The notes under the pieces are model-generated. The model had not been told where the DNA came from. It searched no databases and worked only from the letters and a program-made list of their open reading frames with translations. Position numbers and translations under genes: made by a program. From a virus: a stretch of 55,000 bases of DNA. Location: positions 1 to 55,000 of IMG/VR virus record IMGVR_UViG_3300046534_001090; one strand, given 5' to 3'. This document shows, one piece after another, positions 4,424-49,578 of the stretch. Numbering within the stretch: the stretch's first letter is position 1; each line of letters opens with the position of its first letter.

Positions 4424-4424
4424 T

Positions 4425-5141
4425 ATGAAAGATGTAATCAAAGCAGGCTTGTTTGCCGAAAGTGTTTACCACCAAGCTATCCCTAATATCCTAGCGAGCG
4501 AGGTTTTGTTCTATGATTCAATTCTGGACGAAGAAACGCAAACTATTGGGATGGCTTACTACACAGAAAATGCTATATGGCTATGTTTTGCTGGTACTCG
4601 CAATCGCCGTAACTGGCTATCTAACTTCAAGATTATTAAAAAAATGTACGGCGGCATGTTCAAGGCGCATAAAGGCTTTGCGGAATGCGCTGAAGCTCTT
4701 CAGGAGCAGTGTGAGGAAGCCATAGCAAAAAACAAAGATGCCGATATCTATATCGTAGGGCATAGTTTGGGAGGGGCTATAGCTGTTCTCATGGCTACAT
4801 TCCTCTATAAGCATTACGAAATCCGTAACTATACACTGATCACCTTTGGTCAGCCTTGTGTAACCTGGGGGAGAAACATTAAAAAGTATTTCCCTAAGAG
4901 ATATGTTCGCGTGGTCAATGGTAGTGATGCTATACCTAGAAGGCCTGGTATCGGCTATTCTCATGCTGGCTCGTTGCTATACTTAGATAACGATCAAAGG
5001 ACTTGGCGATTAAACCCAACTCGAGTAGGCACTTTTTTTGATAGGCTACCCACGCTATTCGGTCGATTTGGGGATCATTCACAGCAGTATTACAATAAAG
5101 TTTTAGGGCTAATGAAATGGAAAGACTATACTTCTTATTGA
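4425..5141 (+). CDS. Class 3 lipase-like alpha/beta hydrolase
   Basis: A 238-residue protein starting at ATG 4425, with GGTGAG upstream; the longer frame from 4359 would overlap the previous gene. The nucleophile elbow is GHSLGG with Ser114. Asp168 (GSDAIPR) and His218 (GDHSQQYY) complete a credible triad in the right order, and FAGTR supplies the oxyanion region. This is the lipase_3 (fungal lipase-like) family, which hydrolyses acyl esters of lipids. No signal peptide is present. Position between a transglycosylase-like enzyme and a lipoprotein suggests membrane or outer-membrane disruption during lysis, which is inference. Confidence 0.85.
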   Translation: MKDVIKAGLFAESVYHQAIPNILASEVLFYDSILDEETQTIGMAYYTENAIWLCFAGTRNRRNWLSNFKIIKKMYGGMFKAHKGFAECAEALQEQCEEAIAKNKDADIYIVGHSLGGAIAVLMATFLYKHYEIRNYTLITFGQPCVTWGRNIKKYFPKRYVRVVNGSDAIPRRPGIGYSHAGSLLYLDNDQRTWRLNPTRVGTFFDRLPTLFGRFGDHSQQYYNKVLGLMKWKDYTSY

Positions 5142-29138: not shown

Positions 29139-29814
29139 AGGTATCGCTGGTAAATTTCTACGGGGTGTTAATGCTGTAGCTGCTCCTGCTGCTCTTGCAC
29201 AGCAGCAATCCAATATTGAACAGAAGCGCATGCAGATTCTGCAAGGTTATGCACAGCAAAATATGCAGGCCCAGCAAGATTTTAATGTTGCCAGTGATGA
29301 CCGCAGGCAGGGTTATGCTGTTGAGAATCTTGAGACTGCTCAAGGGTATGCAGAAGATAACCGGGCGGCAGATCAAGCATTTAGTAGAGTTGAGAATGCT
29401 GCCGATCGATCCTTGCAAGTCGAAAGAAACGAGATGGCAGGCGAGACTTTAGATATTGAAAGAGATAGATTTGAAATTGCCAAAGAGCAGGCAGTTGTTG
29501 CGCTGGAAAGTGCCGAACTTGGTCTTGCTGACAAGAAGAGGCTTGAGGGTTTATATCAAATTGTTGCAGATGTTAATTCTGCTGAAGAGGCGAGAGATCA
29601 AGCTGCAGAAGCTATTAATCAACTTACCGGGAAAGGTGGTAATGAAAGCTATAGCGCAATAACGGCATTTAGTGAGCCTAATGAATATGGCGAGCAAACC
29701 AAGGCTGCGGGTGTTCTCAATAGAAGAACTGGCGAACAAGAGTGGATATCCCCAAGTTATGGCAATAACCAAGATGATGATCCTTTAGGTATACGGTCGA
29801 GAATCAGAAAATAA
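29131..29814 (+). CDS. Helical internal virion protein candidate
   Basis: A 227-residue, nearly all-helical protein rich in Gln, Ala, Glu and Asn (QQQSNIEQKRMQILQGYAQQ, then RVENAADRSLQVERNEM). The Gly/Ala-rich start (ARGIAGKFLRGVNAVAAPAA) could contact membranes. It overlaps the upstream gene by eight bases and the giant gene by one base (TAATG), so the cluster is translated as a unit. Probably ejected with the genome. Confidence 0.6.
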   Translation: MARGIAGKFLRGVNAVAAPAALAQQQSNIEQKRMQILQGYAQQNMQAQQDFNVASDDRRQGYAVENLETAQGYAEDNRAADQAFSRVENAADRSLQVERNEMAGETLDIERDRFEIAKEQAVVALESAELGLADKKRLEGLYQIVADVNSAEEARDQAAEAINQLTGKGGNESYSAITAFSEPNEYGEQTKAAGVLNRRTGEQEWISPSYGNNQDDDPLGIRSRIRK

Positions 29815-32800
29815 TGACATTAGAAGAAATCCGGCAGAAGTATCCTCAGTATGCTGATCTGAGTGATCAGGTACTTGCGGATTCCTTGTATGAAAGCTCT
29901 TACTCAGATATTGAACGTCCTGAGTTTGATTCCCTTGTGGGTTTTCAGGCTAAACCTGATGCTCCTAATGCCAGCATTATTGATACCGCTCTTGATTATG
30001 GTATCGATTTTTCATCCGGCGCTGTTAGCTTGGGCGAATCGGTTGTTGGTATTGGTGATCTGCTAACAGGGAACTTAGTTGGCAAAGGTCTATCTTCTAT
30101 TGGCTATGACCCTGAAAAGACTAGAGAAATACTCAAGTCAGGCTATAGCCCTGAAAGAAAGCAGCAACTAGAAGAAGTTCAAGCTGCTGAAGGCTTTCTT
30201 AATACTGTTATTGCAGCAATTCAAAATCCCGGTGTGGCCATTGGCACAATCATTGAATCAACTCCTTATTTGCTAGGTAGTGCTGCACTGGTTAGATCTG
30301 CCGGCACTTCAATGCTGGCAAGCAAAGGCATAACGCCTGGAACAAAAGCCGCACAGATATTCTTTAAAGACCCCAAAGTTCTGACTAAGTTGGCTACTAT
30401 CGGCGCCATTAGTGAAGGAGCTATGGCCGCGGGCAGCATCCAAGAACAGGCAAGGCAGGAAGGGCAGGGCTATTTTGATTCAGCTGGCTATGCTCTTGCG
30501 GCGGGAGCCGGCACAGCTCTTATAGGCAGGCTTGCATCCAGAATACCGGGCTTTGGTGATTTGGAAACCACTGTTGGTACTGCCGGCTTAGGTGCAGGCG
30601 AAGGGTTTACTACCGGCAGACTCAAACAAGCCATTATGGATATCGGCAAGGGTGCTATTCAAGAAGGTGTGCTCGAGGAATTACCTCAGTCTGCACAAGA
30701 GCAAGTATTCAGTAACCTAGCACTTGATAAGCCATGGAATGAGAACGTGCCTGAAGCTGCTGCCATGGGCTTGATAGCCGGTGCCGGCATGGGTGGTGGT
30801 GTAGGTATTATCCGCACTGCTATGCGTAGAAAAGATATCGAAGAAACAATTGCAGGGATTACCGACCCTGATAAATCAATCGATGACGCTATCTCAGAAG
30901 CTGATCAGATCCTTCAGGGTAATGAGGTTGAGTTTAACGCGGCTATTGAATCATCTGCTATTGAGTCTCAGGCCAAAGAGCGAAGCGATATCATTCAAGA
31001 TATCCAAAACCAGATAGCCGAAGCTGACAAGAAAATTGAGAAGGCCCGCGGTGATAGAAGCCAATCTGATATTGATACGGCCACTACTGAAAGGCAGGGA
31101 TTAAGGTCAGAGCTATCGAACATGATAGGCATGGACCTTGATACAACTTTTAACCCTACTGTTAGCAACATGGAAGCTACTCTTATTCCGGGCGAGCAGA
31201 TACCTGGCATTGATATAGTTAGACAGGCACTAGGTCTTGAGATAGAAACAGATCAGCAGTCTCAGGCCCGTCTAGATGGCACTCTTGGCAATGTAGACTT
31301 TACCCCTACTGCTAACACCGATTTATCAATAGCTCCACGTGAAACCGCAGAGGATACGGGAGGCATAGACTTTGAGCGCCCCGAGATAACTACTAGCAGG
31401 CTAGAGCCTAGCGCAAATATACAAACCAGCCCTATTGAATCTGTTGACTTCAAAACAACGGATCTTGCTATTGAGACTAACGATCAGGCTAATAGCCGGT
31501 TATCTTCCAATAATACAACCGTAGACTTCCAGCCTAGCAAGACTTCCAGCATGGAGTTAGCGCCTAAAACCGCTCCTACCACTGGCAGTATCGACTTTGT
31601 TCGGCCAGAAAGGACTACAAGCCAATTAGATGGTGCCGAAACACAGCGCCCCGGCGAGCAGATACCTTCCGTTGATTTTGAAAGGCCAACTGCTTTATCT
31701 ACTACCGATATTCCCGCTACAAATCAGGATGCTACTACCAGCGCCCCAGCTGTCGATTACAATCCAGATAGACTACCTCTTGTTAAAAGCGATGGGACCG
31801 CATTTAAAACAGAAAAATCGGCCACTATGTCAAAGCAGTTTAAATCTGTACCTGGTGCGACTGTTATTCCTGTAGACGGTGGTTTTGCTGTTAAGCCTCC
31901 TACCGCCGAGCAAGTTCAGGCTACTAAAGATCAAGCTGCTGAAGCTGACAAGGCTTCTACCGAACTATCCACAAAGATTAGAGGTATTGTAGGGCGATCA
32001 GAAAAGCTAAGCGATGCAAGAACCGCTGTTGCTCGAGAGCTTGGCAATGAAGTTACTCAGCAGCAAGAACAGAATATCAAGTCTTACTGGAATCAGGATC
32101 AGCAAAAAGCCCGTAAACAGATTAAGGAAAGCGATTCACTAGCTGTTGCAATAGCGAAGCTAGGCGGCATTGATATGAGCTACCGCGAGGATATGACTCG
32201 CGATACTACTGAAAACAAGATGGTTCCCGGTGTCGGCGCCATGTTTAACAAGAAAGGTACTAGCCCTGATGATATGGCTACTGCCTTGCTGCAGTACAAC
32301 TACCTTACTCAGTCTGAAATTGATAACGCGATGGATAACGGGGGTGTTAATGCGCTTGCCGATCTAATCAATGAAGAGCTTGCTGGCGGGAAGAAGCGGT
32401 ATCAGGTTGGATCTGCTTTTGAGCAAGAGCAGATGAATGCTGAAATTGATGCCGAGTACCTTGAACAGAAACAAATTGTTGAAGAAGATCGTGACGATGT
32501 ATATTCTGAGATTGCTGCCGAATACGGCCAAGAAATAGCTGACCAGGCTAGGGTTTATGATCAAGATACTGAAGACTATGTTTATACGCTAGAATCTGAC
32601 CTTGATTCTCAGATGGAATCTCAAATTCAACAGGAGAGGGATTTAGAAAATGAAACAATCAACCAAGACGCGGCAGAGGCCAGCACCACCACCAGTGATG
32701 AGTCCATTGGGCAAACTGCTGACCAACAGAGCGGATTCGCTAGAACAGAGGATCAAAACGCTCAAGAAGAAGACTTCCAGCTAGGCCAGCAATCAGATGC

Positions 32801-35800
32801 TGATATCTTGGCTCAAGAGCGCGCGCAGAAAGCTGCTGACGATACCGCCAAAAAAGCTGAAGAAAAGCAAAAGGCTGACGATGAGTTAGGTGATTTTAAT
32901 CTTGCCGGCTCAAATTCGGCGGTAGACCAGGCTGAATCTCGCGGCCAAGGCAATATGTTCGATGCCATGGGCCGGGCTCCTGTCTCTGATACTGAGGCAG
33001 AGGTTCAAAGACTAACTAAGCAAGTAAACAAAGGCGAAGGAACAGATCAGCTTAGAGCTAAAGCCGGTGGTGAGTTTGGCCCTAATGGGGAGTGGTATGA
33101 AGGTGGTAAGTTTATCGCTACTACAAACCTTCCTAAAAGAATGCAAGTGTGGCTAAAAAACGCTACTAGAAATACAGAAGTTCTTACCGAGTTTGCGACT
33201 GACGATACCCCTGCCAAAAAATCTATTCCTCGTATTGGTCAATTCCCGATTGTTTCTGGCATTGCTGATGCTTATGGGGCGTTTGGTCCTCAGGGGAAAA
33301 CAAGCGATGGCCGCGAAGAGTGGATGAGAGAAAACTATAGCCCGGATCTTTATGCTGAAATAGTGAAAGCCAGGGATTTGTATATCAGTGGCGATAGATG
33401 GGTAAGCGTGCTTGATTTTCCTCTTTCTGCCAATGTATCCGATCTATCTCGAATGATTGTCAACGATATTGCTGTGCCAGAAGAGGCAATAATTAACAGG
33501 GACCAGAAAGTTCAAGACAATATTCGCGCTGTGCAGAAAGCGTATGAAAATGAGTTTTCAGATATTGTCACCACTCCCGCCGAAACATCTAGCGCCGAAT
33601 TAGTAGATGCTGATATCTTTGAAGCTATAGATAATGCCGCAGATTACAACAAGAAATTAGAAAATAGCTACGTAGAGCGCAATTTCTCAGACCAGATTTC
33701 TGCTGAATTCTTAAAAATTCGCACTAGGACAAAGCGCAACGAATGGTTAGACGATAATCTAACCGGCGACCAAGAAAATGAATTGCAGGATTTGTATAAT
33801 TTAGATGAGGATAGGCTTAACGAATTGTCTCAATACGTGGGTCAGTTTGATGATAGCTCCCCGCAAGCCATGGGAAAAAGCATTGCCTTGTGGTTTAAAG
33901 ATGTTGATTCTAAAAATTTCAAAGATACCCCGCAATACGCTGGAATTCTTAGTGCGCTAGAGTTTGCGAAATCAAAAAACTGGGACTTAAATACGGTAAT
34001 GGTTGGCGCTACTGATCGAATTAATGAGTGGGCTGGTAGCGATGCGGCTGAATTATTCCCTAGATTCTTCGGGCAAGATGCCGACAATACCCGCACCATA
34101 GAGCAGGTCCAGCTTGAATATCAAGCTGTAGAGGTTCTTAACGGCGATGATATGACTGAGTCTCGCCTTGAACAACAAGATACCTTGAGAGAGGAAGCTA
34201 AGGATCTACAGGTAGAAAAAGCTCAATCCATGCTTGATGAGGGCAAGGTTCCTGTATTTCAGGAAGGTGATCTTTATTACACAATTACCCCTTCTACCAG
34301 ATCACAAGGCAAGTACCAGCTTACTACCTACAATAAGACTGGTGCGCTTGGTGACACTACCCTTAATTCCCTTGAAGCAATCAATCGAGAACTTCAGTTA
34401 GCCTCGGCTACCATATTGCCAGAATCAGAAGCTGATAAGGTTATGGGCGATATAGCGATTGCTGAAGGTGAGTTTCAGGAGAGAAGAACTAAATCACAAG
34501 AGCAGGCGAATGATCCTGCCAGTCAAGCTATCTCACAATTTACCACTGCCATTAAGGATCTCACTGATCAATTAAAGGCTCCTGCTGCTACGGGTCAAGC
34601 TACTCAAACTGTTGCCGAACCAGATGTAAAATCAACTCCATTAAGTCAAGCCGATGAACAAGTTTCTAAAATACCTGATGGCGACTTGCCTATTGATGAG
34701 TTTAAGGCGGCTTTTGAATTCGTTGTTGAAAACAAGGAAGCTATTAAAACTGAACTTAGCAGTAGTATGACTAAGGCTCAATTGCTAGACAGACTAGGCG
34801 CTTACGAATCCTCTCGCTATAAAAATGAAAAAAAGTCGATGGTTGTATCTACTGTTTTTGACGATATTTTAAGCGACTTCTTGGCGCCCACTGCTGGCGA
34901 ATCTGGAATGATTAGCTACTCTATTGGCATGGGCGGTGATGCTACTCAATCTAAGAGGAATAAGATAAATGCGCTTACTCAGGAAGATTTAGATAACCAT
35001 GCTACTCGCATAGAGCAAAGCAGGAAAGACCGCGCCAAAGCTCTTGAGGAAAAAGAAGAAGGCATTGAAAACCCTGAAAGTATTCAGGACTATGAAAATT
35101 TACTTAATAAGCTTGCTCGTGAAAATGAAGTAAAAACCTTTGCTGAGGCTCGTAACTTACTACCGTTAGATCAGCGTATGGAATTTGATGTGTTAAAGGC
35201 CGCTGAATCAAGAGGTAAGCGCGTTGATAATAAGGATGCAGAAAAAACAAGACTTCAAACTTCGGATATAGCTCAAGTTGGTGAAATTATTGAAACTACT
35301 CACACCAAGAAAGGCTATGACCTTTTTGTTATTCAGCTCGAAGACCGTATTGAAAAGGAAGAATATCAAAAACTAAATGCGTCTGCTAAAAAACTGGGCG
35401 GTCGTTACTCATCGTTTAGAGGGAGTGGGGCTATACCAGGCTTTACTTTTACTGAGCGTGATAATGCTGAAGCATTTCAAAAGCTGGTTGGTGGTGATAC
35501 TGATCAAGCGCAAGAAGTCGCGCAGGCCCGTAGGGATGAGTTTAAAGATGATAAGTCACAGTCTGCTGTCGAGCGCCTTAGAACTATGGCAGATTCCCTT
35601 GAAGAAAGAGCTAATACGTCATTAAATCAAGACAGAAAAGAAAATACGGCTCGCAGGGCAGGGATGGCAGCTAGTGCTACTGCTAAAGCTGAAGCTGAAA
35701 TTGCTATGGCTCAAACCATGAATAATATTGCCAACTCTATTGAGTCTGGTGATGCTCAATTTTTAGATCAAGTTAGAACTAAAACCCAAGTAGAAATGCT

Positions 35801-38800
35801 GGATTCTTTTATTCATATTGCCAAAAGTGAACAGGCGTATGAAATGTTCCCCGGCGATTACACTAAACAGCAAAATTTTAAATACTCAGAGCCAACAGCC
35901 GAAACAGCTGAGAAAGCGGTTTTCCCTGCTTACGTTGCTTGGAGGTCTGATCTAGCCAAGTTAGGAAGACAGCTCCAAGAAATACCAGGCACTAAGCGCA
36001 TGGGCGACAATCTAATAAAAGTTGCTGATGATGTTAGTTCTCAATATACAAAATGGGCAAAAGATAATTTAATCGAAGCATCTGTGTTTAAAAAAGCTGA
36101 TGGTTCTTTAGCGGCATTTTCTACAAAGAAAGCCGCTCTAGCTTCTATATATGTTTCTGGGTTTAGCGGGCAGGCCATTCCATTCCAGGTCAAAAGAGGT
36201 GAGCATGTTATAGTTTTGAGCCCTTCTGAAGCTCAAAAAAGGGGAATATGGGAAGGCCAAGAGGATAAAAAAATATCCTTGTCCAAAGATTTTTCAAGCG
36301 AGCTAATTACAAAGTTAAATCGCAAGTCGGTTGATGTTCCTTGGATACTTGATTCTGCTCACGCCAAACGCAAGCGGCTTTCTGCGATGAACATTGAAAC
36401 CCCTGCTGAATTTAGATCGATGATGCAAGAATACATTGCAAGCAAGTCTCAAGCCAAAGAGCCAAACAAAATCAAGGAACTTGAGAGGGCTATGGTTGGG
36501 CGCCGTAATGATGGTTTAGATTTTTTCCCAACTCCTGCTCTTGTTGCTGGCGAAATGATTGATGCTGCTGGCATTGAAGAGGGAATGACAGTTTTAGAGC
36601 CTTCTGCGGGCATGGGTCATATCGCAGACCAGGTACGCCAAGCAGGTTTCGAGCCTGACGTTGTTGAAATATCTGGCGATAGACGAGAACTGTTAGAAGC
36701 TAAGGGTTATAACGTAATCGATACAGATTTTCTTGAGACTACGGATAAGTATGATCGCATAATAATGAATCCTCCTTTTTCTGACCGCAGGGATTTTGAG
36801 CATGTTCAACACGCCTATTCTCTGCTCAACGAAAATGGTCGCTTAGTTGCCATTGTTGGTGAAGGTGTTTTTTTTGGCAGTGACAAGAAAGCAAAAGAAT
36901 TTAGAGACTGGTTTGAATCTACTGGTGGTACTGATGAGAAATTAGCAGAAGGTACTTTTCAAGATCCGTCTTTGCCAGTAACAACTGGTGTTAATGCCCG
37001 CATGATCGTAATAGACAAATCTTCTGATGAAGATGTTCTATTTAGCGATGATGATATCCTTCAAATATCCAAACTTCAGGCAGATCCTGATGTTAGAGGA
37101 TTAAAGGTAGAGAAGATCAGGGGGTCACTAGCCCCGGCTCTTGCGAATCTAAATCAGATAGATGGCTTTGATGTAGAGATACTTCAATCGGTTGGTGATC
37201 TTCCACCAGGCGCGTTAAACCAGACTGACAAGAATGGCCGGTACAAAGGCGCATTCTACCAAGGCAAGGTGTATCTATTCGCTGATAACCTGAATAGCCG
37301 GCGCGATGCCGAGACTACACTCGCGCATGAGCTGGTAGGCCATAAAGGGGTGCTTGTTGGCGCCACTGCTGAAGAGTGGTCAGGCATTAAGAAAGATATA
37401 AATAACCTTCTAAAATTGAAGAATGCTACTGCTGTAGATATTGCCAGTGAGACTAACCGCAGATACAAGAATTTAAAGCAAGGCAGTGAAAACTGGAATA
37501 AAGAATTTCTGGCCATTGCTGCCGAGCGTAGATCATTGCGCGGCACTTTAAAAGATATGGTAGAGCGGGTTAAGGCCATTGTTCGCAGATACATGAAAGA
37601 GCTTGGCTTTAAAGGTCCGTTCGCTGAATCAGATATCGAATCAATACTTCAAAACTCTGAGCAGAATCTTCGCAATCGTAGGGGTGATCCTAGAGCTAAT
37701 CCTAATGACTCATTTTTGGGTGTTAGTGATTTACCAATGGACACAGAATCGCGACTACAGAGAGCCAGGGATATGGGCTTTGATACAGATACTGTTTATT
37801 ACCATAAATCAAAAAACGACTTTGAGGAATTTTCTAGGGACGCTGAATCAGGCTGGACGATCGACAAGAAAACAAATGGGATTTATTTCGCCAGCGATCG
37901 TGATTATGTAAATATGTATTCTGGAACTACTGTTTACCCTACATATTTAAAGAAGGGAGCAAGGATTAAAGACGTTAGCTCTAACTTGGAGCTATCAGAT
38001 CAGCACAAAGAAACCAGAAAGGCTGAACAAGACGGATTTACGGCTGTAAGAATTACAGACAATTCTTTGGGTGAGTTTATTGTTTTTGACCCTTCCCAGA
38101 TACGCTCAGTCAACGCAGAGTTTGATCCAGATTTCTCAGATAGCGGCAATATCTTAATGAGCCAGGAAGAGCCCGATAGCGCATTAAAAGAAATAGCTGA
38201 TCGAGTATTGGCTAAAACTAATCGGGGATCCTTTGCAAACACTTTAAAGCAGTCTATTGAAGACCATAAGGACAATTGGCAATCAACTATGCGAAGAGGT
38301 TTGGTTGATGAGTACCAGTCTATCGCTGACCTTGAAACAGCCCAATATGGGGAGCTTAGGGATGCCACAGATTCGGCATACAAAGCGGCTACTTTCAGCA
38401 AGAAAAGTGGAACAGTATTAGATTCGGTTATGACCTATGGTGCGCCAGTGTATAAGGATGGCGGCATAGAGATTGATGAAAGCATGCCAGGTCTAGTTAA
38501 AATCTTTGAGCCCTTGGCTATGCGCGGGATGGTTCGAGAATGGGAATTGTGGGCCGGTGCTGTTAGAGCTAAGAGGCTAATGGCTGAAGGCCGCGAAAAC
38601 CTATACACGCAAAAAGATATCGATACTATTCTTGGGTCTGTTACCGGCAAGAAGTTAGAGCTGTATCAAAAGATTCAGCGTAACTGGACCGCATTTAATA
38701 AGCGCATGCTAGATTTTTCTGAAGCAGCTGGCCTGATCAATCCTGAAGAGCGACAACTATGGGAAAGTGATGATTATGTGCCTTTCCATCGCATATCAGA

Positions 38801-40778
38801 ATTGCCTACAGATAACCCAAAGAACAAAAGCGGTAACACTAAAGGTTTGGCCGGCAAGAAGTCTGGGATTACCCAGCTTAAAGGTGGCGTAGAGCAGATT
38901 AGTATCATGGAATCTATCGTGCGTAATACAACAAGCATGATCGATGCGTCCATGAAAAACATTGCCATGCAAAGAACTATTGAATTAGCTGAAAAAACAG
39001 GAGTTGTTGAAGAGGTTAGCGATGCGACTATCAGTGATGAAGAGGCTATTAAGCGGCTTGATGATTATGGGATTCAGTACACTGACAAGAATTTAGGCGC
39101 CTACAAGAGTCTACTAGCTAAGAACGATGCTAGAAACGGCACTGTTAGCGTTAGTGTTAATGGCAAGCCTAAGAGATACCTGGTTAATGATCCTGTCCTA
39201 CTGCGAGCGATGAACGGACTAGGACCGACCGGGATAGAAGGCGTAATGAAGATCTTTAGAATGCCAAAGATGCTGCTGACTGAATTGATAGTAGCGGATC
39301 CATCATTCTCGTTAAGAAACTTCACGCGAGATACTTTGTCTACGTGGGTAACCGTCAACGGGATTAAGAGAAATCCTATTTCCGATGCAGTTAAAAATGT
39401 GCGTAATGCTTACAATGAGACTGATACGTTAAAGAGCATGCGTATTCAGGGTGTTGGTGGCGGCTCATTCTACGATGTAACACCTGAAGGCGTTAGGTCG
39501 CACTTAGAAAAAGTAAGCGGTGATGCGTCTATTGGGACAAGTGTTGCTGAATTTTGGCAATCATACAAAAAAGTCCTTGGCACAACTGAGTTAGCAAACA
39601 GAATGGCTGTGTATGACGCAGTGATTAAGGCCGGTGGTTCTAAAGCGGAGGCTGCTTACCAGGCAGATGACGTACTAAACTTTACTAGGCATGGTGAATG
39701 GAAAGCTATTAACTTCCTCATCCAGTCAGTACCGTTTATGAATTCCCGTATACAGGGCTTAGACAGGCTTGCTAGAGGCGCTAAAGAAGGAACTACTAAA
39801 GCTCACCAGTTCAATCAGCAATTTATGATGAAAGGCGCTGTGTACACCGCAGCGACATTGGCGCTATTGGCCGCTAATTGGGATAACGAAGACTATTGGG
39901 ATCTTGAGGAATGGGAGCGAGATACTTATTACCATTTCTACACGCCTGGTGGCGGGCATTTCCGTATGCCTAAACCTTTTGAGGTTGGCGCTATATTTTC
40001 TACTGTTCCTGAGAGACTGTTTGAGCAGTTCAGGGAAGATGCCAATATGAAGCTGCTAGGCAAGCGCATGCTTAGCATGTTCGCCAATACCTTCGCTTTT
40101 GATCCTGTTCCTCAGATTTTCAAGCCTGCTTATGAAGTGGCAAAGAATGAGAGCAGCTTTACCAAGAGACAGATTCTTAGTCAGGGCATGAAGTATGCTT
40201 CACCAGAAGCTCAGTACACGCCTTATACCAGCAAAACTTTTATTGAACTCGCTGATGCTATGCCTGATTCCGCTCCCGAGTGGATGCGCTCACCAGCTCG
40301 CCTAGAACACCTTTACAGGGGTTATTTAGGAACTCTAGGGGGATATGTCCTGTTAGGCAGTGATTTCATAGCTAGGCAGGCTACAGGTGCTCCACCACGG
40401 CCAGAAGCGCGAATAAGAGACATACCTGTACTGAATTCTTTTATCCGGGATGGCGTTCAAAGCAATAAGCAGCTAGGCAAGATCTATGATCTGTCGAACG
40501 ATATTAATGAAATATACACTGCCATGAACAAGTACCGTAAGGAAGGCGCCTCTCAAAAAGCGATTAGTCTTCTAACTAACAACAAAGAAAAACTAAGGTT
40601 GCGTATAGCTCTGAACAAGACAACTACGCAGATGGGAAATATCGGTGCTCAAATCAGGAAGGCATACGATAGCAAAACTCTTAATCCAGCAGAAAAGAGA
40701 AAGATGATTGATGATCTAACAACGAGAAGGAATGCTATTGCTAAAAATGCCGAGAAAAGGTTTAGAGATTTCTTCTAA
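29814..40778 (+). CDS. Giant polyvalent internal virion protein (methyltransferase, zincin-like, ART-like, LPD38-like)
   Basis: A 3,654-residue protein, a fifth of the window. Order seen: hydrophobic Gly/Ala-rich segments (about residues 135-345); Thr/Pro linkers with VDF and IDFxRPE repeats (about 455-640); helical and acidic regions; an adenine-methyltransferase with EPSAGMGHIAD at 2262 and NPPF at 2319; a zincin-like HELVGH at 2505-2510; an ADP-ribosyltransferase-like domain from H2664 (YYHKS) to E2754 (EFIVFDPSQIRS); then an LPD38-like region, about 2800-3654 (VADPSFSLRNFTRDT). This is the polyvalent-protein architecture described by Iyer, Aravind and colleagues (2017), thought to enter the host with the DNA and counter host defences. 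DarB of P1 is a distant functional analogue. Each module's activity is inferred. Confidence 0.9.
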   Translation: MTLEEIRQKYPQYADLSDQVLADSLYESSYSDIERPEFDSLVGFQAKPDAPNASIIDTALDYGIDFSSGAVSLGESVVGIGDLLTGNLVGKGLSSIGYDPEKTREILKSGYSPERKQQLEEVQAAEGFLNTVIAAIQNPGVAIGTIIESTPYLLGSAALVRSAGTSMLASKGITPGTKAAQIFFKDPKVLTKLATIGAISEGAMAAGSIQEQARQEGQGYFDSAGYALAAGAGTALIGRLASRIPGFGDLETTVGTAGLGAGEGFTTGRLKQAIMDIGKGAIQEGVLEELPQSAQEQVFSNLALDKPWNENVPEAAAMGLIAGAGMGGGVGIIRTAMRRKDIEETIAGITDPDKSIDDAISEADQILQGNEVEFNAAIESSAIESQAKERSDIIQDIQNQIAEADKKIEKARGDRSQSDIDTATTERQGLRSELSNMIGMDLDTTFNPTVSNMEATLIPGEQIPGIDIVRQALGLEIETDQQSQARLDGTLGNVDFTPTANTDLSIAPRETAEDTGGIDFERPEITTSRLEPSANIQTSPIESVDFKTTDLAIETNDQANSRLSSNNTTVDFQPSKTSSMELAPKTAPTTGSIDFVRPERTTSQLDGAETQRPGEQIPSVDFERPTALSTTDIPATNQDATTSAPAVDYNPDRLPLVKSDGTAFKTEKSATMSKQFKSVPGATVIPVDGGFAVKPPTAEQVQATKDQAAEADKASTELSTKIRGIVGRSEKLSDARTAVARELGNEVTQQQEQNIKSYWNQDQQKARKQIKESDSLAVAIAKLGGIDMSYREDMTRDTTENKMVPGVGAMFNKKGTSPDDMATALLQYNYLTQSEIDNAMDNGGVNALADLINEELAGGKKRYQVGSAFEQEQMNAEIDAEYLEQKQIVEEDRDDVYSEIAAEYGQEIADQARVYDQDTEDYVYTLESDLDSQMESQIQQERDLENETINQDAAEASTTTSDESIGQTADQQSGFARTEDQNAQEEDFQLGQQSDADILAQERAQKAADDTAKKAEEKQKADDELGDFNLAGSNSAVDQAESRGQGNMFDAMGRAPVSDTEAEVQRLTKQVNKGEGTDQLRAKAGGEFGPNGEWYEGGKFIATTNLPKRMQVWLKNATRNTEVLTEFATDDTPAKKSIPRIGQFPIVSGIADAYGAFGPQGKTSDGREEWMRENYSPDLYAEIVKARDLYISGDRWVSVLDFPLSANVSDLSRMIVNDIAVPEEAIINRDQKVQDNIRAVQKAYENEFSDIVTTPAETSSAELVDADIFEAIDNAADYNKKLENSYVERNFSDQISAEFLKIRTRTKRNEWLDDNLTGDQENELQDLYNLDEDRLNELSQYVGQFDDSSPQAMGKSIALWFKDVDSKNFKDTPQYAGILSALEFAKSKNWDLNTVMVGATDRINEWAGSDAAELFPRFFGQDADNTRTIEQVQLEYQAVEVLNGDDMTESRLEQQDTLREEAKDLQVEKAQSMLDEGKVPVFQEGDLYYTITPSTRSQGKYQLTTYNKTGALGDTTLNSLEAINRELQLASATILPESEADKVMGDIAIAEGEFQERRTKSQEQANDPASQAISQFTTAIKDLTDQLKAPAATGQATQTVAEPDVKSTPLSQADEQVSKIPDGDLPIDEFKAAFEFVVENKEAIKTELSSSMTKAQLLDRLGAYESSRYKNEKKSMVVSTVFDDILSDFLAPTAGESGMISYSIGMGGDATQSKRNKINALTQEDLDNHATRIEQSRKDRAKALEEKEEGIENPESIQDYENLLNKLARENEVKTFAEARNLLPLDQRMEFDVLKAAESRGKRVDNKDAEKTRLQTSDIAQVGEIIETTHTKKGYDLFVIQLEDRIEKEEYQKLNASAKKLGGRYSSFRGSGAIPGFTFTERDNAEAFQKLVGGDTDQAQEVAQARRDEFKDDKSQSAVERLRTMADSLEERANTSLNQDRKENTARRAGMAASATAKAEAEIAMAQTMNNIANSIESGDAQFLDQVRTKTQVEMLDSFIHIAKSEQAYEMFPGDYTKQQNFKYSEPTAETAEKAVFPAYVAWRSDLAKLGRQLQEIPGTKRMGDNLIKVADDVSSQYTKWAKDNLIEASVFKKADGSLAAFSTKKAALASIYVSGFSGQAIPFQVKRGEHVIVLSPSEAQKRGIWEGQEDKKISLSKDFSSELITKLNRKSVDVPWILDSAHAKRKRLSAMNIETPAEFRSMMQEYIASKSQAKEPNKIKELERAMVGRRNDGLDFFPTPALVAGEMIDAAGIEEGMTVLEPSAGMGHIADQVRQAGFEPDVVEISGDRRELLEAKGYNVIDTDFLETTDKYDRIIMNPPFSDRRDFEHVQHAYSLLNENGRLVAIVGEGVFFGSDKKAKEFRDWFESTGGTDEKLAEGTFQDPSLPVTTGVNARMIVIDKSSDEDVLFSDDDILQISKLQADPDVRGLKVEKIRGSLAPALANLNQIDGFDVEILQSVGDLPPGALNQTDKNGRYKGAFYQGKVYLFADNLNSRRDAETTLAHELVGHKGVLVGATAEEWSGIKKDINNLLKLKNATAVDIASETNRRYKNLKQGSENWNKEFLAIAAERRSLRGTLKDMVERVKAIVRRYMKELGFKGPFAESDIESILQNSEQNLRNRRGDPRANPNDSFLGVSDLPMDTESRLQRARDMGFDTDTVYYHKSKNDFEEFSRDAESGWTIDKKTNGIYFASDRDYVNMYSGTTVYPTYLKKGARIKDVSSNLELSDQHKETRKAEQDGFTAVRITDNSLGEFIVFDPSQIRSVNAEFDPDFSDSGNILMSQEEPDSALKEIADRVLAKTNRGSFANTLKQSIEDHKDNWQSTMRRGLVDEYQSIADLETAQYGELRDATDSAYKAATFSKKSGTVLDSVMTYGAPVYKDGGIEIDESMPGLVKIFEPLAMRGMVREWELWAGAVRAKRLMAEGRENLYTQKDIDTILGSVTGKKLELYQKIQRNWTAFNKRMLDFSEAAGLINPEERQLWESDDYVPFHRISELPTDNPKNKSGNTKGLAGKKSGITQLKGGVEQISIMESIVRNTTSMIDASMKNIAMQRTIELAEKTGVVEEVSDATISDEEAIKRLDDYGIQYTDKNLGAYKSLLAKNDARNGTVSVSVNGKPKRYLVNDPVLLRAMNGLGPTGIEGVMKIFRMPKMLLTELIVADPSFSLRNFTRDTLSTWVTVNGIKRNPISDAVKNVRNAYNETDTLKSMRIQGVGGGSFYDVTPEGVRSHLEKVSGDASIGTSVAEFWQSYKKVLGTTELANRMAVYDAVIKAGGSKAEAAYQADDVLNFTRHGEWKAINFLIQSVPFMNSRIQGLDRLARGAKEGTTKAHQFNQQFMMKGAVYTAATLALLAANWDNEDYWDLEEWERDTYYHFYTPGGGHFRMPKPFEVGAIFSTVPERLFEQFREDANMKLLGKRMLSMFANTFAFDPVPQIFKPAYEVAKNESSFTKRQILSQGMKYASPEAQYTPYTSKTFIELADAMPDSAPEWMRSPARLEHLYRGYLGTLGGYVLLGSDFIARQATGAPPRPEARIRDIPVLNSFIRDGVQSNKQLGKIYDLSNDINEIYTAMNKYRKEGASQKAISLLTNNKEKLRLRIALNKTTTQMGNIGAQIRKAYDSKTLNPAEKRKMIDDLTTRRNAIAKNAEKRFRDFF

Positions 40779-43431: not shown

Positions 43432-44559
43432 TTAAATCGTCCAGACTTTATTAACCGCCATCAAGAAAACGTTCTTGCCGTATCCGGCATAGAACTCTGC
43501 GCCTGCAAAATCAGTGGTAAAGTTGGGTTGGTAAGTAACCAGGCTAAGTAGGTTTATTTTCTTGAGGGGATAGTCAGTTAGAAAAGGAACAACCCCCTGC
43601 TCTATAGGAAGCCACGAGTCATCCCCCTGATTGTGCTTGATAAGAGCTTGTCCATTAGGTAACACGGCACCCGCCCAAATATTAGTAGTGGTGCCTATAA
43701 GATCATCGGGAACTTGCAGCCTCGCGGAAAAAGCACTTGGTGTTAGCAGGTTCTTAAATATGCCGGAGCGTTCAGGTGTCCCAACCCCTTTAAAGTATCT
43801 AATGCACCACGCTTCTGGGCGCAAAGAATTAACGACTGAAAACGGTAGGCCCGTATAGCCTTTATCTCCGTGACCTTGCCCCCACCAGTTGGCGAGTAGG
43901 AACATTTGCAACTCCATGTCGTAGCCCACAATATACATATAGTGCCTTCCAATGGCTGGGTTTTCAGCGTCTTCAACCTGATATTTATGTTCGGTCCAAT
44001 GACCTTTAAGGCTGAAAATTGAGTCTGTAACGCGTATACCCAAGCCTACTATCATCCCCTCATTTAAAGCGGAGCAAACGCGATGAACTTTTTCTTCTTC
44101 GGTGTACTGGGGCCCTACTGGAATTACAGCCTCGTAATCAGCTATCAAGTTTGGCTTTGCTAAAGCGTATGTTTCTGGGCTGGGTATTGTGTTATTTGCT
44201 TCTTCAAGGTACGGATACTCATGCTCTTGGCATACCCCAACAGTTGAAAGCGCCTGCAACGCATCACGGATGTAAACGCCATACTGCCCCACATAGCCAC
44301 CCAACACCTTGGTTGAGTTGTGCATAAACTGCCTAGATGGGATAAATAGTCCTCCATCGCCATCTATTTTGCGAGCAAGATCAAAGTAATTGCCATTGGC
44401 TACACAAGCGCCTTGCGCTAACTGATTAACCAAACCAACACATGACCATCGAAGGTCTAGGGATTTTGGCAACTCTTCGGGCATGAAGGGCGAAATGTAG
44501 TCGTGGTCCCTTGGATCGACTGTAGGTACTGCGTTTCCTGCTAACTCAAACTTTTGCAT
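43432..44559 (-). CDS. Papain-family (C1) cysteine peptidase
   Basis: A 375-residue protein. Start set at ATG 44559, nine bases after GAGG; GTG 44574 and two other ATGs are in frame. Q46 and C52 (NQLAQGAC) match papain Gln19/Cys25 in spacing. GRHYMYIVGYD supplies the catalytic His, and ANWWGQGHGDKGY matches the papain Asn motif NSWGxxWGxxGY. No signal peptide, propeptide or membrane segment is visible, so it probably acts in the host cytoplasm. The C-terminal 100 residues are an unassigned beta-rich domain. It follows a 36-residue Cys-rich gene that overlaps its start. Confidence 0.85.
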   Translation of the reverse strand: MQKFELAGNAVPTVDPRDHDYISPFMPEELPKSLDLRWSCVGLVNQLAQGACVANGNYFDLARKIDGDGGLFIPSRQFMHNSTKVLGGYVGQYGVYIRDALQALSTVGVCQEHEYPYLEEANNTIPSPETYALAKPNLIADYEAVIPVGPQYTEEEKVHRVCSALNEGMIVGLGIRVTDSIFSLKGHWTEHKYQVEDAENPAIGRHYMYIVGYDMELQMFLLANWWGQGHGDKGYTGLPFSVVNSLRPEAWCIRYFKGVGTPERSGIFKNLLTPSAFSARLQVPDDLIGTTTNIWAGAVLPNGQALIKHNQGDDSWLPIEQGVVPFLTDYPLKKINLLSLVTYQPNFTTDFAGAEFYAGYGKNVFLMAVNKVWTI

Positions 44560-44656
44560 CTTCATCATCCTCACAAATACAGTTAGTTTCTAATTCACCA
44601 CAGCTTTTACACTTTTTATGCTCAGCCTGGTAATCATCTTCTTCTACAGGTTTCAT
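44546..44656 (-). CDS. 36-residue acidic protein with four-cysteine zinc-knuckle-like motif
   Basis: Short frame MKPVEEDDYQAEHKKCKSCG, then a CIC pair and an acidic end. C-x2-C and C-x-C spacing suggests one zinc site. It overlaps the start of the peptidase gene in another frame by 14 bases, which suggests translational coupling. A small acidic partner of the peptidase, for example an inhibitor or targeting subunit, is speculation. Confidence 0.6.
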   Translation of the reverse strand: MKPVEEDDYQAEHKKCKSCGELETNCICEDDEDAKV

Positions 44657-44672
44657 ATTTCTTCTACCATTT

Positions 44673-45578
44673 TTATTCTTTGAGGCCGGACCCGCCAAGC
44701 GCACTACAAAGAGAAAGTATTATTTTTGAGATATTGCTAATTGATAAAAGAATATCTGCCTGGGCTCTTTGCTCATCAGACTCATCTGGGTTTTCTTCAA
44801 GAGTATCTTCTTCTTTAAATTCAAGAAACTTAATGCCCTTAATTCCTAGTGATTTAGTAAATACGACCCTTACCAGATTCTGATAGATAAGCTCTATCTC
44901 GGCGCCATACATATTATGCTCGGCAATAAGTTCGCGGCCCATAGGGATTAGTTCTGGCTCACCCTTTAATGTGTGAACTTCGCCGCCGTTGCCAGCTAAC
45001 CTTGCATACTCACCAATACGAAAAGCAGAAGGAAGATTGTTATCGATTGCGTTAGCGTTAAACCATCCAGCTATACCCATATCAACTGGATACTTACACT
45101 CAATAGGCTTGACCGGCAGACTGCCAGTGCAGCTTCTAATAAGGTTAGTCATCTTATCAGCCTGATTCTCTGAGCTGGCATCCACAATTAGCAGGTGATT
45201 CTTTAAATCAAATACCGCATGGATTCTTTTGTGCTTAGTAAACGCTTGGGGTAGCAATGATGCAGTAACATCATCTTGAATTTGCTTGCGCTCTTTGCGA
45301 TACATTTTACGTTGTTCTTTTTCTTCTATCCGCTCAATAATTTCATCCGCTTTTCTGCGAACGACTTCAGCGGGAAGTATCTTCTCTTCGATATTGATGC
45401 AAAGAAGAGCTAGATCACCGAACAAGTTTAAATGAGAGGAAAACCCAAGAGGCACTACAAAGCCGGCAGAGCTAAACTGGTAGTCGCTGCAAGGCACAAA
45501 CATCTGCTCTTCAAACATGGCCTCATCCATTTCTGGAAGGGTTGAATAGGTAAAAATACTTGCGTTTTTAAAGAACAT
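44673..45578 (-). CDS. rdgC: RdgC-like nucleoid/recombination-associated protein
   Basis: A 301-residue protein, matching bacterial RdgC (about 303) in length. The opening MFFKNASIFTYS corresponds to the family's WFKN-type start, FVPCSDYQFSSAGFVVPLG to the following conserved strand, and the central RKERKQIQDDVTASLLPQAF is a highly typical RdgC helix. RdgC rings bind dsDNA and dampen RecA loading. In a phage with its own RecT it could shield phage DNA from host recombination. Overlaps its upstream gene by 11 bases. Confidence 0.9.
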   Translation of the reverse strand: MFFKNASIFTYSTLPEMDEAMFEEQMFVPCSDYQFSSAGFVVPLGFSSHLNLFGDLALLCINIEEKILPAEVVRRKADEIIERIEEKEQRKMYRKERKQIQDDVTASLLPQAFTKHKRIHAVFDLKNHLLIVDASSENQADKMTNLIRSCTGSLPVKPIECKYPVDMGIAGWFNANAIDNNLPSAFRIGEYARLAGNGGEVHTLKGEPELIPMGRELIAEHNMYGAEIELIYQNLVRVVFTKSLGIKGIKFLEFKEEDTLEENPDESDEQRAQADILLSISNISKIILSLCSALGGSGLKE

Positions 45579-45756: not shown

Positions 45757-45963
45757 TTAGTCCACTTTTTCGGATTGAATTTTTTCGTGAACTTCCATTC
45801 TGTTCACTGGAACAGATTTGTCAGCAATTATACCTATCCTTGCTCGACCATTCTTTATATCCAAAACAGTTATTGTAATTTCAGCATTTTCACCTATCAC
45901 AAAACTTTCGCCTATTTTTCTAGTGAGCAGTAGGCATCCTTTTTCGTAATGATTATCGTCCAT
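45757..45963 (-). CDS. csrA: CsrA-like RNA-binding regulator
   Basis: A 68-residue protein from ATG 45963, with AGGTG upstream; longer frames reach into the non-coding leader. LLLTRKIGESFVIGENAEIT, then LDIKNGRARIGIIA and the RMEVHEKIQ helix match CsrA/RsmA throughout, including Arg in the RxEVxxKI segment used for RNA contact. CsrA dimers bind GGA in mRNA leaders and change translation or stability. A phage copy could reprogram host carbon, motility or biofilm control, or its own messages. A hairpin with GGA in the loop lies just upstream. Confidence 0.93.
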   Translation of the reverse strand: MDDNHYEKGCLLLTRKIGESFVIGENAEITITVLDIKNGRARIGIIADKSVPVNRMEVHEKIQSEKVD

Positions 45964-46012
45964 TTTAACACCTATGTTTCTAATCTTGATTGGGTAGTTA
46001 TTAAAGGTGATA

Positions 46013-46042
46013 GAACAGCTTGTAATAAATCCCAAGCTGTTC
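46013..46042 (-). promoter_or_regulatory. Inverted repeat in csrA leader, GGA in loop
   Basis: A perfect 10-bp inverted repeat (GAACAGCTTG and CAAGCTGTTC) with a 10-base loop. On the minus strand the loop begins GGATTT. CsrA prefers GGA exposed in hairpin loops, so this may be an autoregulatory site. No T-run follows on the minus strand, so it is a poor terminator. Confidence 0.45.
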
Positions 46043-46059
46043 TGCAGTCCACTTTTTTG

Positions 46060-46638
46060 CTAGACCGCCCCAATATCTTTAAGGGCAAAATAAACTTCCT
46101 TGGCGCCAATGGTGTCAGCGAGAGCTCTATGAGTTTCCTTGAATACGTCTTCACCAAAGAAGTGAGCATGAGCCTTTACCAGAGAAGGTGTTTTACCGCC
46201 GATATGCTTTTGAGCTAATCTCATAGCGCAAACATAAAGATCCTTGTCTTCTTTCCAGCTTCTCATTGCTTCAGGATCAAACCGATATCGCATCTGAGCT
46301 ATCCGCAAAATTCTGTTATCGAAGACAGTGTTGAAGGCCATACGAACATCGCAACGCTCGTACATGACCATGAACTGATCTAAGGCACTAATCTCGGGAA
46401 TACCCTCATCCATCGCTCTTTCCATGGTAATGCCATGCTTTTGAAACGCTTCAGAGCTTTCATCCCATGACCAGCCATCTGGCTTAATAATGAATGACAT
46501 TTCATCAAGAGTTTCACGAGTAGAGGTATCCACTAACTGAGCTGCTATCTCAACAAGGTGTGGCTGGGCAGCATCATTACTTGGGATTCCCCAATTAGGA
46601 AGGCCGGTAGTCTCTGTATCAAACGAAAGTAATTTCAT
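46060..46638 (-). CDS. DnaQ-like 3'-5' exonuclease (DEDD family)
   Basis: A 192-residue exonuclease: Exo I motif SFDTETTG near residue 5 (Asp and Glu metal ligands), Exo II region around AFNTVFDNRIL (Asn and Asp), and Exo III near HRALADTIGAKEV (His and Asp). Spacing and length fit proofreading-type or RNase T-like stand-alone exonucleases. It may remove 3' ends during phage recombination with RecT and the YqaJ exonuclease next to it. AGGA lies upstream. Confidence 0.85.
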   Translation of the reverse strand: MKLLSFDTETTGLPNWGIPSNDAAQPHLVEIAAQLVDTSTRETLDEMSFIIKPDGWSWDESSEAFQKHGITMERAMDEGIPEISALDQFMVMYERCDVRMAFNTVFDNRILRIAQMRYRFDPEAMRSWKEDKDLYVCAMRLAQKHIGGKTPSLVKAHAHFFGEDVFKETHRALADTIGAKEVYFALKDIGAV

Positions 46639-46665
46639 AACTTATAGTCCTGGCTCTAGTGAGTT

Positions 46666-48609
46666 TTAAAGGTTTTCTATGTCGCTGGCAGTAATGGTTA
46701 TCAGAGTATAATTGCACTCGTTTGTTCGAGTTCCTATATGGATGCCTTTACCAGATAGATCTTCTATCTCAATAAATTGAGATTTGGGTCCATTTTCAAC
46801 CAAGCGAATAACAATACCCTTCTCTTTAAACAACCGATCAAAGAGAACTCTATTATCAGAATCAGGGATATCAGCAGCCTCACTAACAGGAGCAGTAGTT
46901 GCAAATTGCATAGGCTTAGGAGTTTCAATAGCCGGCTTAATGGATTCAGCAGGATTGACAGTCTGGGTAGGCTTCTCTTGTTCTTTAGCCTTAAGATCAT
47001 CAAGTGCTTTCTGATCATCTAGCGCCTTTTGATCATCCAATGCTTTCTTAACGTCAACAAGTTCTTGCCTGGCATCCTGATACACCTGAATGGCATCATC
47101 AATCAACTTCAAAGCACCTATTTTCTTATCGTTAACTTCGATAGAAAATTCTTCCATGCTGGTTGGGTCTATTGCTGAAATATTAGATTTAGCAACAGCA
47201 AGGTGCGCTTCTTCCATTTCTGGGATCATAGAAACAGTGATATCTATCGTGCTCAAAACATCTTTATGTTTCTGGATACGCTCACTATTTAAACGATCCA
47301 GTTCTTCTTTGTAAATTCTAATTTCAGACAAAATGTGCAGTGTCAAATGCTCACTACCCATCTGGCATAGAGATTGAAGATCTTGAAATAAAGGCTGGTA
47401 AACCGCTTCGATCTTTTTAATGCGAGCAAGGTTAGCTCTAATCAAATCGCGCTTTTCGGTTAGCGATATCTTTACTTCTGCTATCTCATCATTAATAGCA
47501 CTTTGCATATTATCCAAAGAACGCTTGCCCTTGATCACTTCTGAGAAATCGGGAACTTTAAAGCCAGGGACAAAAACACCATCGGCAGAAAACTCTTTGT
47601 TGGCTTGAGCTACAGCTTCTCTGAATACGGATACAGCAGACTCAATTAGCTTTATTCTACGGCTTTCTTTTTGATCTTTAATTTGCCGCTGAAGATTAAG
47701 CCGAGTTTGGCGAGCCATGTTTTCCCTAATATCTTCTACAGCCGATATAATTGAATCAAGGTTAGCCTTGCTAGTTAGCTGCTCTTTAATGCCAACACAC
47801 TTACCCTCTATATCCTGAAGCCACTTAACATCTTGTTCGGCATTGGCAAAGTCTTGATCACTATCTAGCTCAACAGGGATCTGGCTTATGATTAACGCAG
47901 CCTGCTCTTTAAACTGCTTGATATTGTCTTCGGTAACTAACTGGCCACTAACGTCAACGCGAAGAACTGGAAGTGAATCAGTACGCTTACGGCCTATTAC
48001 CTGCTCTACCTTAGCCGTAGGAACATAATCAGCAACATCTTTATCTAATTGCGCCCAGGCCTTGATAAGCTGCTCTCTTCTTCCAGCAACCGGCCTATAG
48101 TCCATCCAAGCAAAGTTTTCTTGAGTGCCATCAGAGCAAACAAAAATACAACGCTGCATGTTTTGATTAACTAGGAACTGGTGCTCTAACTGCCAGAAAA
48201 TATATGGCGGTAGATCCTTTTCCTTAACAGCATTGAAAAGGCCGACATTGAACTGCTTATGCTCAAAAGTAGTATCGTTAGCATCCAGCGAATTAACACC
48301 ATCATAAGACGCTAGATATTCGCCTAGTGTGCAGGTAATTGGGTATAGATCTTCGCCAAATATTTCTTCAACAACCGCTCTTGCTTTGGCTTCAGTCTCA
48401 TGGCCGCGGGTAAATACAACTCGCTCAACATAGTCGCTGTATTCTTTAGGCTCCAAAGTAGCCTTTTGATGGATCAACTCATCGCGCTTAACATTGGGAT
48501 GACAACCCATCATCATTGGCGCCTCACTAGCTGTTTTAGTCTTTGGAATAGCTCTTAAAGCATGCCATTCGGCAGATCCTTGGGGGCATGTATGCGTTAT
48601 CATTTCCAT
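46666..48609 (-). CDS. YqaJ-type recombination exonuclease with long coiled-coil C-terminus
   Basis: A 647-residue protein; ATG 48609 follows AAAGGAAACAGC, whereas TTG 48627 is unneeded. Residues 1-195 are a PD-(D/E)xK nuclease: QGSAEWHALRA, TRGHETEAKAR (GxExE), SYDGVNSLDANDTTFEHKQF (Asp, then Glu-x-Lys) and WQLEHQFLVN (QxxHQ). Such enzymes resect double-stranded ends for RecT. The remaining 450 residues are mostly coiled coil with a DDQKA repeat and a small C-terminal domain. Typical YqaJ exonucleases are about 200-350 residues, so the tail is unusual. Partner RecT lies just upstream. Confidence 0.8.
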   Translation of the reverse strand: MEMITHTCPQGSAEWHALRAIPKTKTASEAPMMMGCHPNVKRDELIHQKATLEPKEYSDYVERVVFTRGHETEAKARAVVEEIFGEDLYPITCTLGEYLASYDGVNSLDANDTTFEHKQFNVGLFNAVKEKDLPPYIFWQLEHQFLVNQNMQRCIFVCSDGTQENFAWMDYRPVAGRREQLIKAWAQLDKDVADYVPTAKVEQVIGRKRTDSLPVLRVDVSGQLVTEDNIKQFKEQAALIISQIPVELDSDQDFANAEQDVKWLQDIEGKCVGIKEQLTSKANLDSIISAVEDIRENMARQTRLNLQRQIKDQKESRRIKLIESAVSVFREAVAQANKEFSADGVFVPGFKVPDFSEVIKGKRSLDNMQSAINDEIAEVKISLTEKRDLIRANLARIKKIEAVYQPLFQDLQSLCQMGSEHLTLHILSEIRIYKEELDRLNSERIQKHKDVLSTIDITVSMIPEMEEAHLAVAKSNISAIDPTSMEEFSIEVNDKKIGALKLIDDAIQVYQDARQELVDVKKALDDQKALDDQKALDDLKAKEQEKPTQTVNPAESIKPAIETPKPMQFATTAPVSEAADIPDSDNRVLFDRLFKEKGIVIRLVENGPKSQFIEIEDLSGKGIHIGTRTNECNYTLITITASDIENL

Positions 48610-48651
48610 TGCTGTTTCCTTTTTCAATTTAAAACGGATTAATTAGTTGGT

Positions 48652-49578
48652 TTAGCTTTGCTCTTGATCGCTGGCCGGGGCTTCCTCAGTCGGCGCAGGC
48701 TTGGGTTTTAGTGTATTGATACCGGCCAGCTGCTCTTCAGTGAAGTTATACATAGTCCCAACAGTATCAATTATTGACTTGGTTGTTTTGCCGGCCTCAA
48801 CCGCTTTAGCCCATTTAGGAAGATTAGTTTTAAACTTTTCATCCGAGTAAAAGGGCAGCTCATTTTCTGGCACAGACTCACCTGGTATATCTGTCTCAGG
48901 ATCAGGTTCTATTCTGCCTGCACTATCATCAAGCTCTTCAGCTGCATAAACACCCATCAATGACTGAGGCGCAAAACGTCTAATGTACTTGCGAACTGCG
49001 GCATAGGTAATCTGCTGCTGGGGATCCAAGGCCCATCCGGTCGAGAAGCGCGGGTAACACTGGGCCAGTAAAACGGTTATCTCTCTAGGCTCAGTCTCGC
49101 CACTAAGAGTAGCGGTAACTTTAACGCCTAGACCTTCTTCGTCCTTTTTGTCCCAACCAGGCACGTAGTATTTCTTGTCATTTTTTTCGCTTGTCTGTTC
49201 CTTTACCTTGCCAAGTATCTTTTTCCAATCACCAATGAACTCAAAATTAGGCTGGGTCTTAAGCGCACCAGATGAAACAGCCACTGAGTTAATCAACTGA
49301 GCTTCATAACCTATGATGCCGCCAGGTGTAACAAACGTCTTCTGAGCCACTACATGAGGCAGCATGCCCCATTGCATGGCCTGCATTACCACCGCTAGGC
49401 AGTCTGAAGGCTTGCCGCGAAAGTGAATAGGGATAGTGGCAACACCTTTAGCCATAAAATCAGCAAACGTCATCATTGATTGAAGATTTTGCGGATTCAT
49501 TATCGACTGAGCTGTGCTCGGGCCTCTATCGTAAGTGCTGATAGCTGTTGAGTTGTTGTCTTCTGTGTTATCTGACAT
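48652..49578 (-). CDS. recT: RecT-family ssDNA annealing protein
   Basis: A 308-residue recombinase. The family segments are FRGKPSDCLAVVMQAMQWGM, then GIIGYEAQLINSVAVSSG, PREITVLLAQCYPRFSTGW (split) and QQQITYAAVRKYIRRFAP. RecT-type proteins anneal complementary single strands after 5'-end resection. Length fits. The C-terminus is Pro/Glu/Ala-rich and acidic. AGGAG precedes ATG 49578. It forms a recombination pair with the following exonuclease and needs SSB (2485-2979). Confidence 0.9.
   Translation of the reverse strand: MSDNTEDNNSTAISTYDRGPSTAQSIMNPQNLQSMMTFADFMAKGVATIPIHFRGKPSDCLAVVMQAMQWGMLPHVVAQKTFVTPGGIIGYEAQLINSVAVSSGALKTQPNFEFIGDWKKILGKVKEQTSEKNDKKYYVPGWDKKDEEGLGVKVTATLSGETEPREITVLLAQCYPRFSTGWALDPQQQITYAAVRKYIRRFAPQSLMGVYAAEELDDSAGRIEPDPETDIPGESVPENELPFYSDEKFKTNLPKWAKAVEAGKTTKSIIDTVGTMYNFTEEQLAGINTLKPKPAPTEEAPASDQEQS

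Follow-up and report, generated by a model that had tools for sequence, protein, structure and literature searches.

The locus and its question

What might a papain-family (C1) cysteine peptidase do for a bacterial virus that encodes it among genes for DNA recombination? The question is raised by a 55,000-nucleotide stretch of viral DNA, positions 1 to 55,000 of the IMG/VR record IMGVR_UViG_3300046534_001090 (hereafter the window). A preliminary description of this DNA had proposed that a C1 peptidase and a 36-residue protein overlapping its start together form a small unit for proteolytic takeover or counter-defence. An earlier paper (PMC10380794) already described xylellain-type C1A peptidases in Myoviridae and Siphoviridae and attributed them to horizontal acquisition by tailed phages. 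C1A peptidases are also annotated in public phage structures, and in the open-access literature searched we found no paper that assigns any phage protease of the papain family a function. The same description called C1 peptidases rare in phages, which fits the roughly two dozen cases among 50,697 isolate records but not IMG/VR, where one motif scan returned at least 92 C1-type ORFs.

A predicted xylellain-type peptidase with a second domain

The peptidase and the small ORF at its start comprise the following features.

43432-44559, minus strand: C1 peptidase gene, 375 aa
43789-44559, minus strand: catalytic C1A (xylellain-type) peptidase domain, residues 1-257, predicted from PF00112, the 3ois match, AF2 and Foldseek
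44422-44424, minus strand: predicted catalytic Gln46
44404-44406, minus strand: predicted catalytic Cys52
43942-43944, minus strand: predicted catalytic His206
43888-43890, minus strand: predicted catalytic Asn224
43435-43788, minus strand: C-terminal domain, residues 258-375, phage-family-specific and of no known family, shared by G001 and 12 other IMG/VR contigs
44546-44656, minus strand (ATG 44656, stop 44546): acidic 36-aa ORF with a CxxC...CxC pattern, four Cys, net charge -7 and a gene-like codon score

The peptidase ORF has its stop end at 43432 on the minus strand, and its start codon is likely the ATG at 44559 (MQKFELAG...) because the G001 relative begins at the aligned position and a GAGG lies 9 nt upstream. 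Pfam assigned Peptidase_C1 (PF00112) to the protein with E=6.9e-6, over the gathering score, and all nine two-domain family members described below matched the same model, the best at 1.1e-21. The nearest solved structure found by phmmer in the PDB was xylellain (3ois, 1.1e-14). An AF2 model based on 56 phage C1 sequences had pLDDT mostly between 80 and 97 for residues 10-250, and its best PDB matches in Foldseek were xylellain and cathepsins, with a TMt of 0.73 for 3ois; the modelled peptidase has the papain fold. The residues Gln, Cys, His and Asn occur in this order with the Q-x5-C spacing. Gln46, Cys52, His206 and Asn224 are invariant in the nine-member family and in the alignment of 56 phage C1 proteins, for which the search motif partly dictated His and Q-x5-C served as a filter on candidates, while Asn was unselected. 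The claim that all C1 catalytic motifs are intact was thus borne out, and neither Cys nor His has been lost in the aligned relatives. The peptidase had also been described as free of signal and propeptide, which holds because the N-terminus has no hydrophobic segment and the alignment with xylellain, from residue 41 of 3ois onward, begins after only 13-14 residues. The window ORF is accordingly predicted, from sequence and fold, to be an intact C1A peptidase of the xylellain type (MEROPS C1A), sharing the catalytic fold and residues of xylellain without its N-terminal stretch.

The preliminary description did not mention a second domain at residues 258-375. The window peptidase does not end soon after the Asn motif, as single-domain enzymes do: 114-115 residues follow this motif in the window and G001 proteins, compared with 0-18 in the other 54 of the 56 aligned phage C1 proteins, among which the extension is therefore unique to these two. 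Residues 258-375 gave no match in Pfam, NCBIfam or PHROGs and none convincing in the PDB. A WD40 or other known domain was considered and rejected, since the PDB matches were summed weak repeats with no significant stretch and disappeared with a nine-sequence profile. In the AF2 model from 56 sequences, only the catalytic domain was modelled, the C-terminal domain having pLDDT below 50. The two domains are similarly conserved between the window and G001, with identities of 75.3% (N domain) and 73.3% (C domain). PHROG 16701, annotated as 'peptidase', matches the catalytic part, at E=2e-4 in the window protein and with values as low as 3e-22 in other phage C1 proteins, but its model stops with the catalytic domain and its other members lack the C-terminal domain of the window family. 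Burkholderia phage FLC9 and the 595-kb uncultured phage LR756511 likewise have the phage C1 catalytic domain, with about 25-31% identity to family members; their peptidases are single-domain proteins of 263 and 261 aa and lie outside the family clade.

A single-origin family under purifying selection

The two-domain architecture is not confined to the window and G001. With a motif designed by hand for the His/Asn region, we retrieved another 12 contigs of the two-domain type, of which two are cut short by the contig end. This brings the architecture to 14 IMG/VR contigs and rules out a family of two. A C-terminal profile made from two sequences matched at least nine of the 12 contigs at 1e-12 to 1e-15. 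In a tree of the catalytic domain, nine two-domain representatives formed one clade with 98/85 support, and a single change sufficed to explain the architecture in 98% of bootstrap trees, supporting a single origin of the two-domain family. The nearest outgroup, on a long branch, is a more distant C1 protein found in L140 (7166-8041, minus strand) and L151 (6977-7852, minus strand), which lacks the C-terminal domain and is located beside structural-looking genes. Scans of bacterial-genome contigs using narrow peptides found no bacterial relatives of the peptidase.

Both domains are under strong purifying selection. For three pairs of intermediate divergence (L138/L139, L138/L141 and L139/L141), dN/dS was 0.08-0.14 with both domains constrained, and the L143/L150 pair gave 0.12 overall; between the window and G001, dN was 0.20 with dS saturated. 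Cys52 is the only invariant Cys in the nine-member family, so no disulfide is conserved, which would fit a reducing cytoplasm.

Genomic context

In the window, the peptidase stands at the end of a leftward recombination module, in the gene order RecT, RecE-like exonuclease, DnaQ-like exonuclease, CsrA-like, RdgC, 36-mer, peptidase.

44673-45578, minus strand: RdgC-like recombination-associated protein directly upstream of the small ORF and peptidase (PF04381 E=8e-60, phrog_724)
45757-49578, minus strand: rest of the leftward recombination module, with RecT-like, RecE-like exonuclease, DnaQ-like exonuclease and CsrA-like genes (PHROGs)

A promoter-like match of 11/12 positions, by consensus only, is found at 49858-49829 at the head of this module, and the CsrA-like post-transcriptional regulator within it occupies 45757-45960 on the minus strand (phrog_9500, E=3e-14). 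Elsewhere on the plus strand of the window, a 3654-aa ORF (29814-40778) with a stretch resembling a DNA methyltransferase by eye ends the structural gene block, and a lipase-like ORF (4359-5141) with a GHSLGG motif by eye overlaps the end of the preceding ORF.

Among the other family members, the G001 peptidase follows primase/helicase, PolA and small ORFs, a T7-like replication block as read from the sequences. At six loci it comes after the class I ribonucleotide reductase (RNR) small subunit, either directly or behind one or two small ORFs; in L146/L148 it comes after a metallophosphoesterase and DUF3310, and in L138/L145 after a lysozyme. The two-domain peptidase is thus usually located among genes for recombination, replication or nucleotide metabolism. 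A separate observation concerns L143, where a 433-aa ORF lies on the opposite strand, 1521-2822 nt downstream as counted from the start of the peptidase; the strand was read by script only, and translating the region in the direction of the peptidase ran into stop codons. The ORF opens with a signal-like sequence and contains a CVVCH motif of the haem type; it also occurs in L150, beside small lipoprotein-like ORFs, and is not usual on a phage contig.

Other phage C1 peptidases have different neighbours. In a comparison made without formal control, 116 ORFs adjoining them matched mainly tail and virion families among the best 25 families listed, and 15 of the 21 PHROG families with at least two matching neighbours in that list were tail, baseplate, collar or virion-structural. 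A virion role is therefore the class default for phage C1 peptidases, and the window enzyme might analogously be a virion- or tail-associated or lysis-released peptidase that degrades cell-surface proteins or aids passage through the envelope, its present location being incidental. Tail fibre, sheath and virion genes near the other enzymes point in this direction, as do the C1 peptidase directly after the endolysin in THSA-485A and the one forming part of the annotated endolysin in MMB025; the L138/L145 subgroup, which adjoins the lysozyme, could naturally act late or in lysis. However, the window, G001, the RNR-adjacent loci and L146/L148 are outside structural modules, and the peptidase has neither a signal peptide nor a conserved disulfide pair, which makes such a role unlikely for the window enzyme. 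The position of several members directly after RNR genes could instead suggest general proteolysis for nutrient supply, in which unspecific breakdown of host proteins would parallel the contribution of RNR and nucleases to DNA synthesis. Any early gene would be expected near RNR, phage proteins would themselves be damaged by an unspecific protease in the cytosol, and the conserved extra domain speaks for directed cleavage; we regard this explanation as improbable.

Movement between unrelated phages

We compared the window all against all with seven carriers of the gene (G001, G002, G003, G006, G007, G008 and G009), and the peptidase was the only protein common to the window and each of them. 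Nucleotide similarity between the window and G001 stops at the borders of the peptidase gene. G002 and G003 have peptidases that are 85% identical, whereas their RNR subunits are 55-56% identical, from which it follows that the peptidase gene moves horizontally; its placement also differs between the two, after a lysozyme versus after NrdB. The carriers include podovirus-like (window), T4-like (G008) and T7-like DNA polymerase phages (G001 and G007). A scan of G007 and G008 found tail sheath, UvsX, clamp loader, portal and major head protein; G002, G003 and G009 have replication and RNR genes with no structural hallmark among the best 25 families listed, and their phage status rests on IMG/VR. 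The terminase of the window is closest to those of EBPR podovirus 2 and Sulfitobacter phage phiGT1. The latter has the same overall layout including the leftward recombination module, but no peptidase. An RdgC scan for phages syntenic with the window found none.

The gene is thus exchanged as a single unit between otherwise unrelated phages. Such movement between unrelated bacterial viruses suggests a portable tool working inside the infected cell, even though gene mobility occurs also for genes without an anti-host role. The same observations bear on the idea of a polyprotein or maturation protease processing the phage's own proteins. Viruses commonly use papain-like enzymes on their own proteins, and one protein of the window phage is 3654 aa long. 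However, there can hardly be a common phage substrate because beyond the peptidase the tested carriers and the window have no protein in common, and phiGT1 maintains the same layout without the gene; self-processing is therefore very improbable.

The small upstream ORF

The 36-aa ORF is probably a real small gene, judging from its codon usage, which lies at the 48th percentile of true 36-codon windows and is exceeded by 0.26% of wrong-frame windows. It was correctly described as an acidic, four-Cys protein, and its overlap with the start of the peptidase is 14 nt. The further proposal that it is a dedicated inhibitor, activator or targeting factor fails because the slot upstream of the peptidase is filled across the family by six kinds of small ORF that are unrelated to one another: the window 36-mer, the G001 70-mer, the 'CYNE' type, the 'EGNLV' type, DUF3310 and the L149 type. 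In each case the small ORF either overlaps the start of the peptidase or abuts it. The small ORF is accordingly not conserved with the peptidase in other phages, and our searches found no homologue of the 36-mer. Knuckle-like spacing of four Cys, or of Cys plus His, is present in the small ORFs of the window and G001 and absent from the other slot types.

A two-gene unit, in which the zinc-knuckle-like 36-aa protein would control or target the peptidase, could draw on the start overlap and the gene-like codon usage. In L138, L141, L145 and L147, a different ORF of 71-73 aa, with the motif CYNE(I/V)FTK, travels with the peptidase across two genomic contexts, which leaves open a local linkage in one subgroup but provides no family-wide partner. 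With six unrelated occupants of the slot and no relatives of the 36-mer, we give the two-gene explanation very little probability.

A possible intracellular effector protease

An intracellular proteolytic role is plausible because the enzyme is intact, has no signal or propeptide, is encoded among recombination genes and is under strong purifying selection. Its catalytic residues and fold, the single-origin two-domain family, the mobility of the single gene and the mostly DNA- and nucleotide-metabolism contexts are the observations behind our preferred reading; from them we infer activity, cytosolic location, timing, a role for the C-terminal domain and a host target. On this reading, to which we assign a probability of about 0.5, the peptidase would be a horizontally mobile, intracellular phage effector protease acting against the host early in infection and aimed by its C-terminal domain. 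The xylellain-type C1A cysteine endopeptidase, free of signal and zymogen propeptide, would be made alongside the DNA recombination and replication genes during infection and might be active in the cytosol in the early or middle phase. The C-terminal domain, of about 115 residues here, could select or position the substrate, and the Cys52-His206-Asn224 triad would cleave a host protein or a small set of them to the advantage of the phage, either in takeover or in counter-defence, for which the mobility of the gene is the one indirect argument. The peptidase had no sequence matches in PADLOC or among defence components, a result that speaks neither for nor against counter-defence.

Compared with the xylellain-type peptidases known before, what is new here is the added C-terminal domain, its single-origin family in a separate clade, the movement between unrelated phages and the different genomic niche among replication and recombination genes. 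More tentatively, the family might be dedicated to counter-defence or takeover, with the new C-terminal domain recognising a conserved host or defence protein for the papain-type domain to cut, and with the gene exchanged singly among podovirus-like, T4-like and other phages; we consider this wider proposal possible but doubtful. Being kept in otherwise unrelated phages and carrying a targeting-like, uncharacterised domain, this one gene makes a good candidate for a tool by which phages act on a host or defence protein that is widely conserved.
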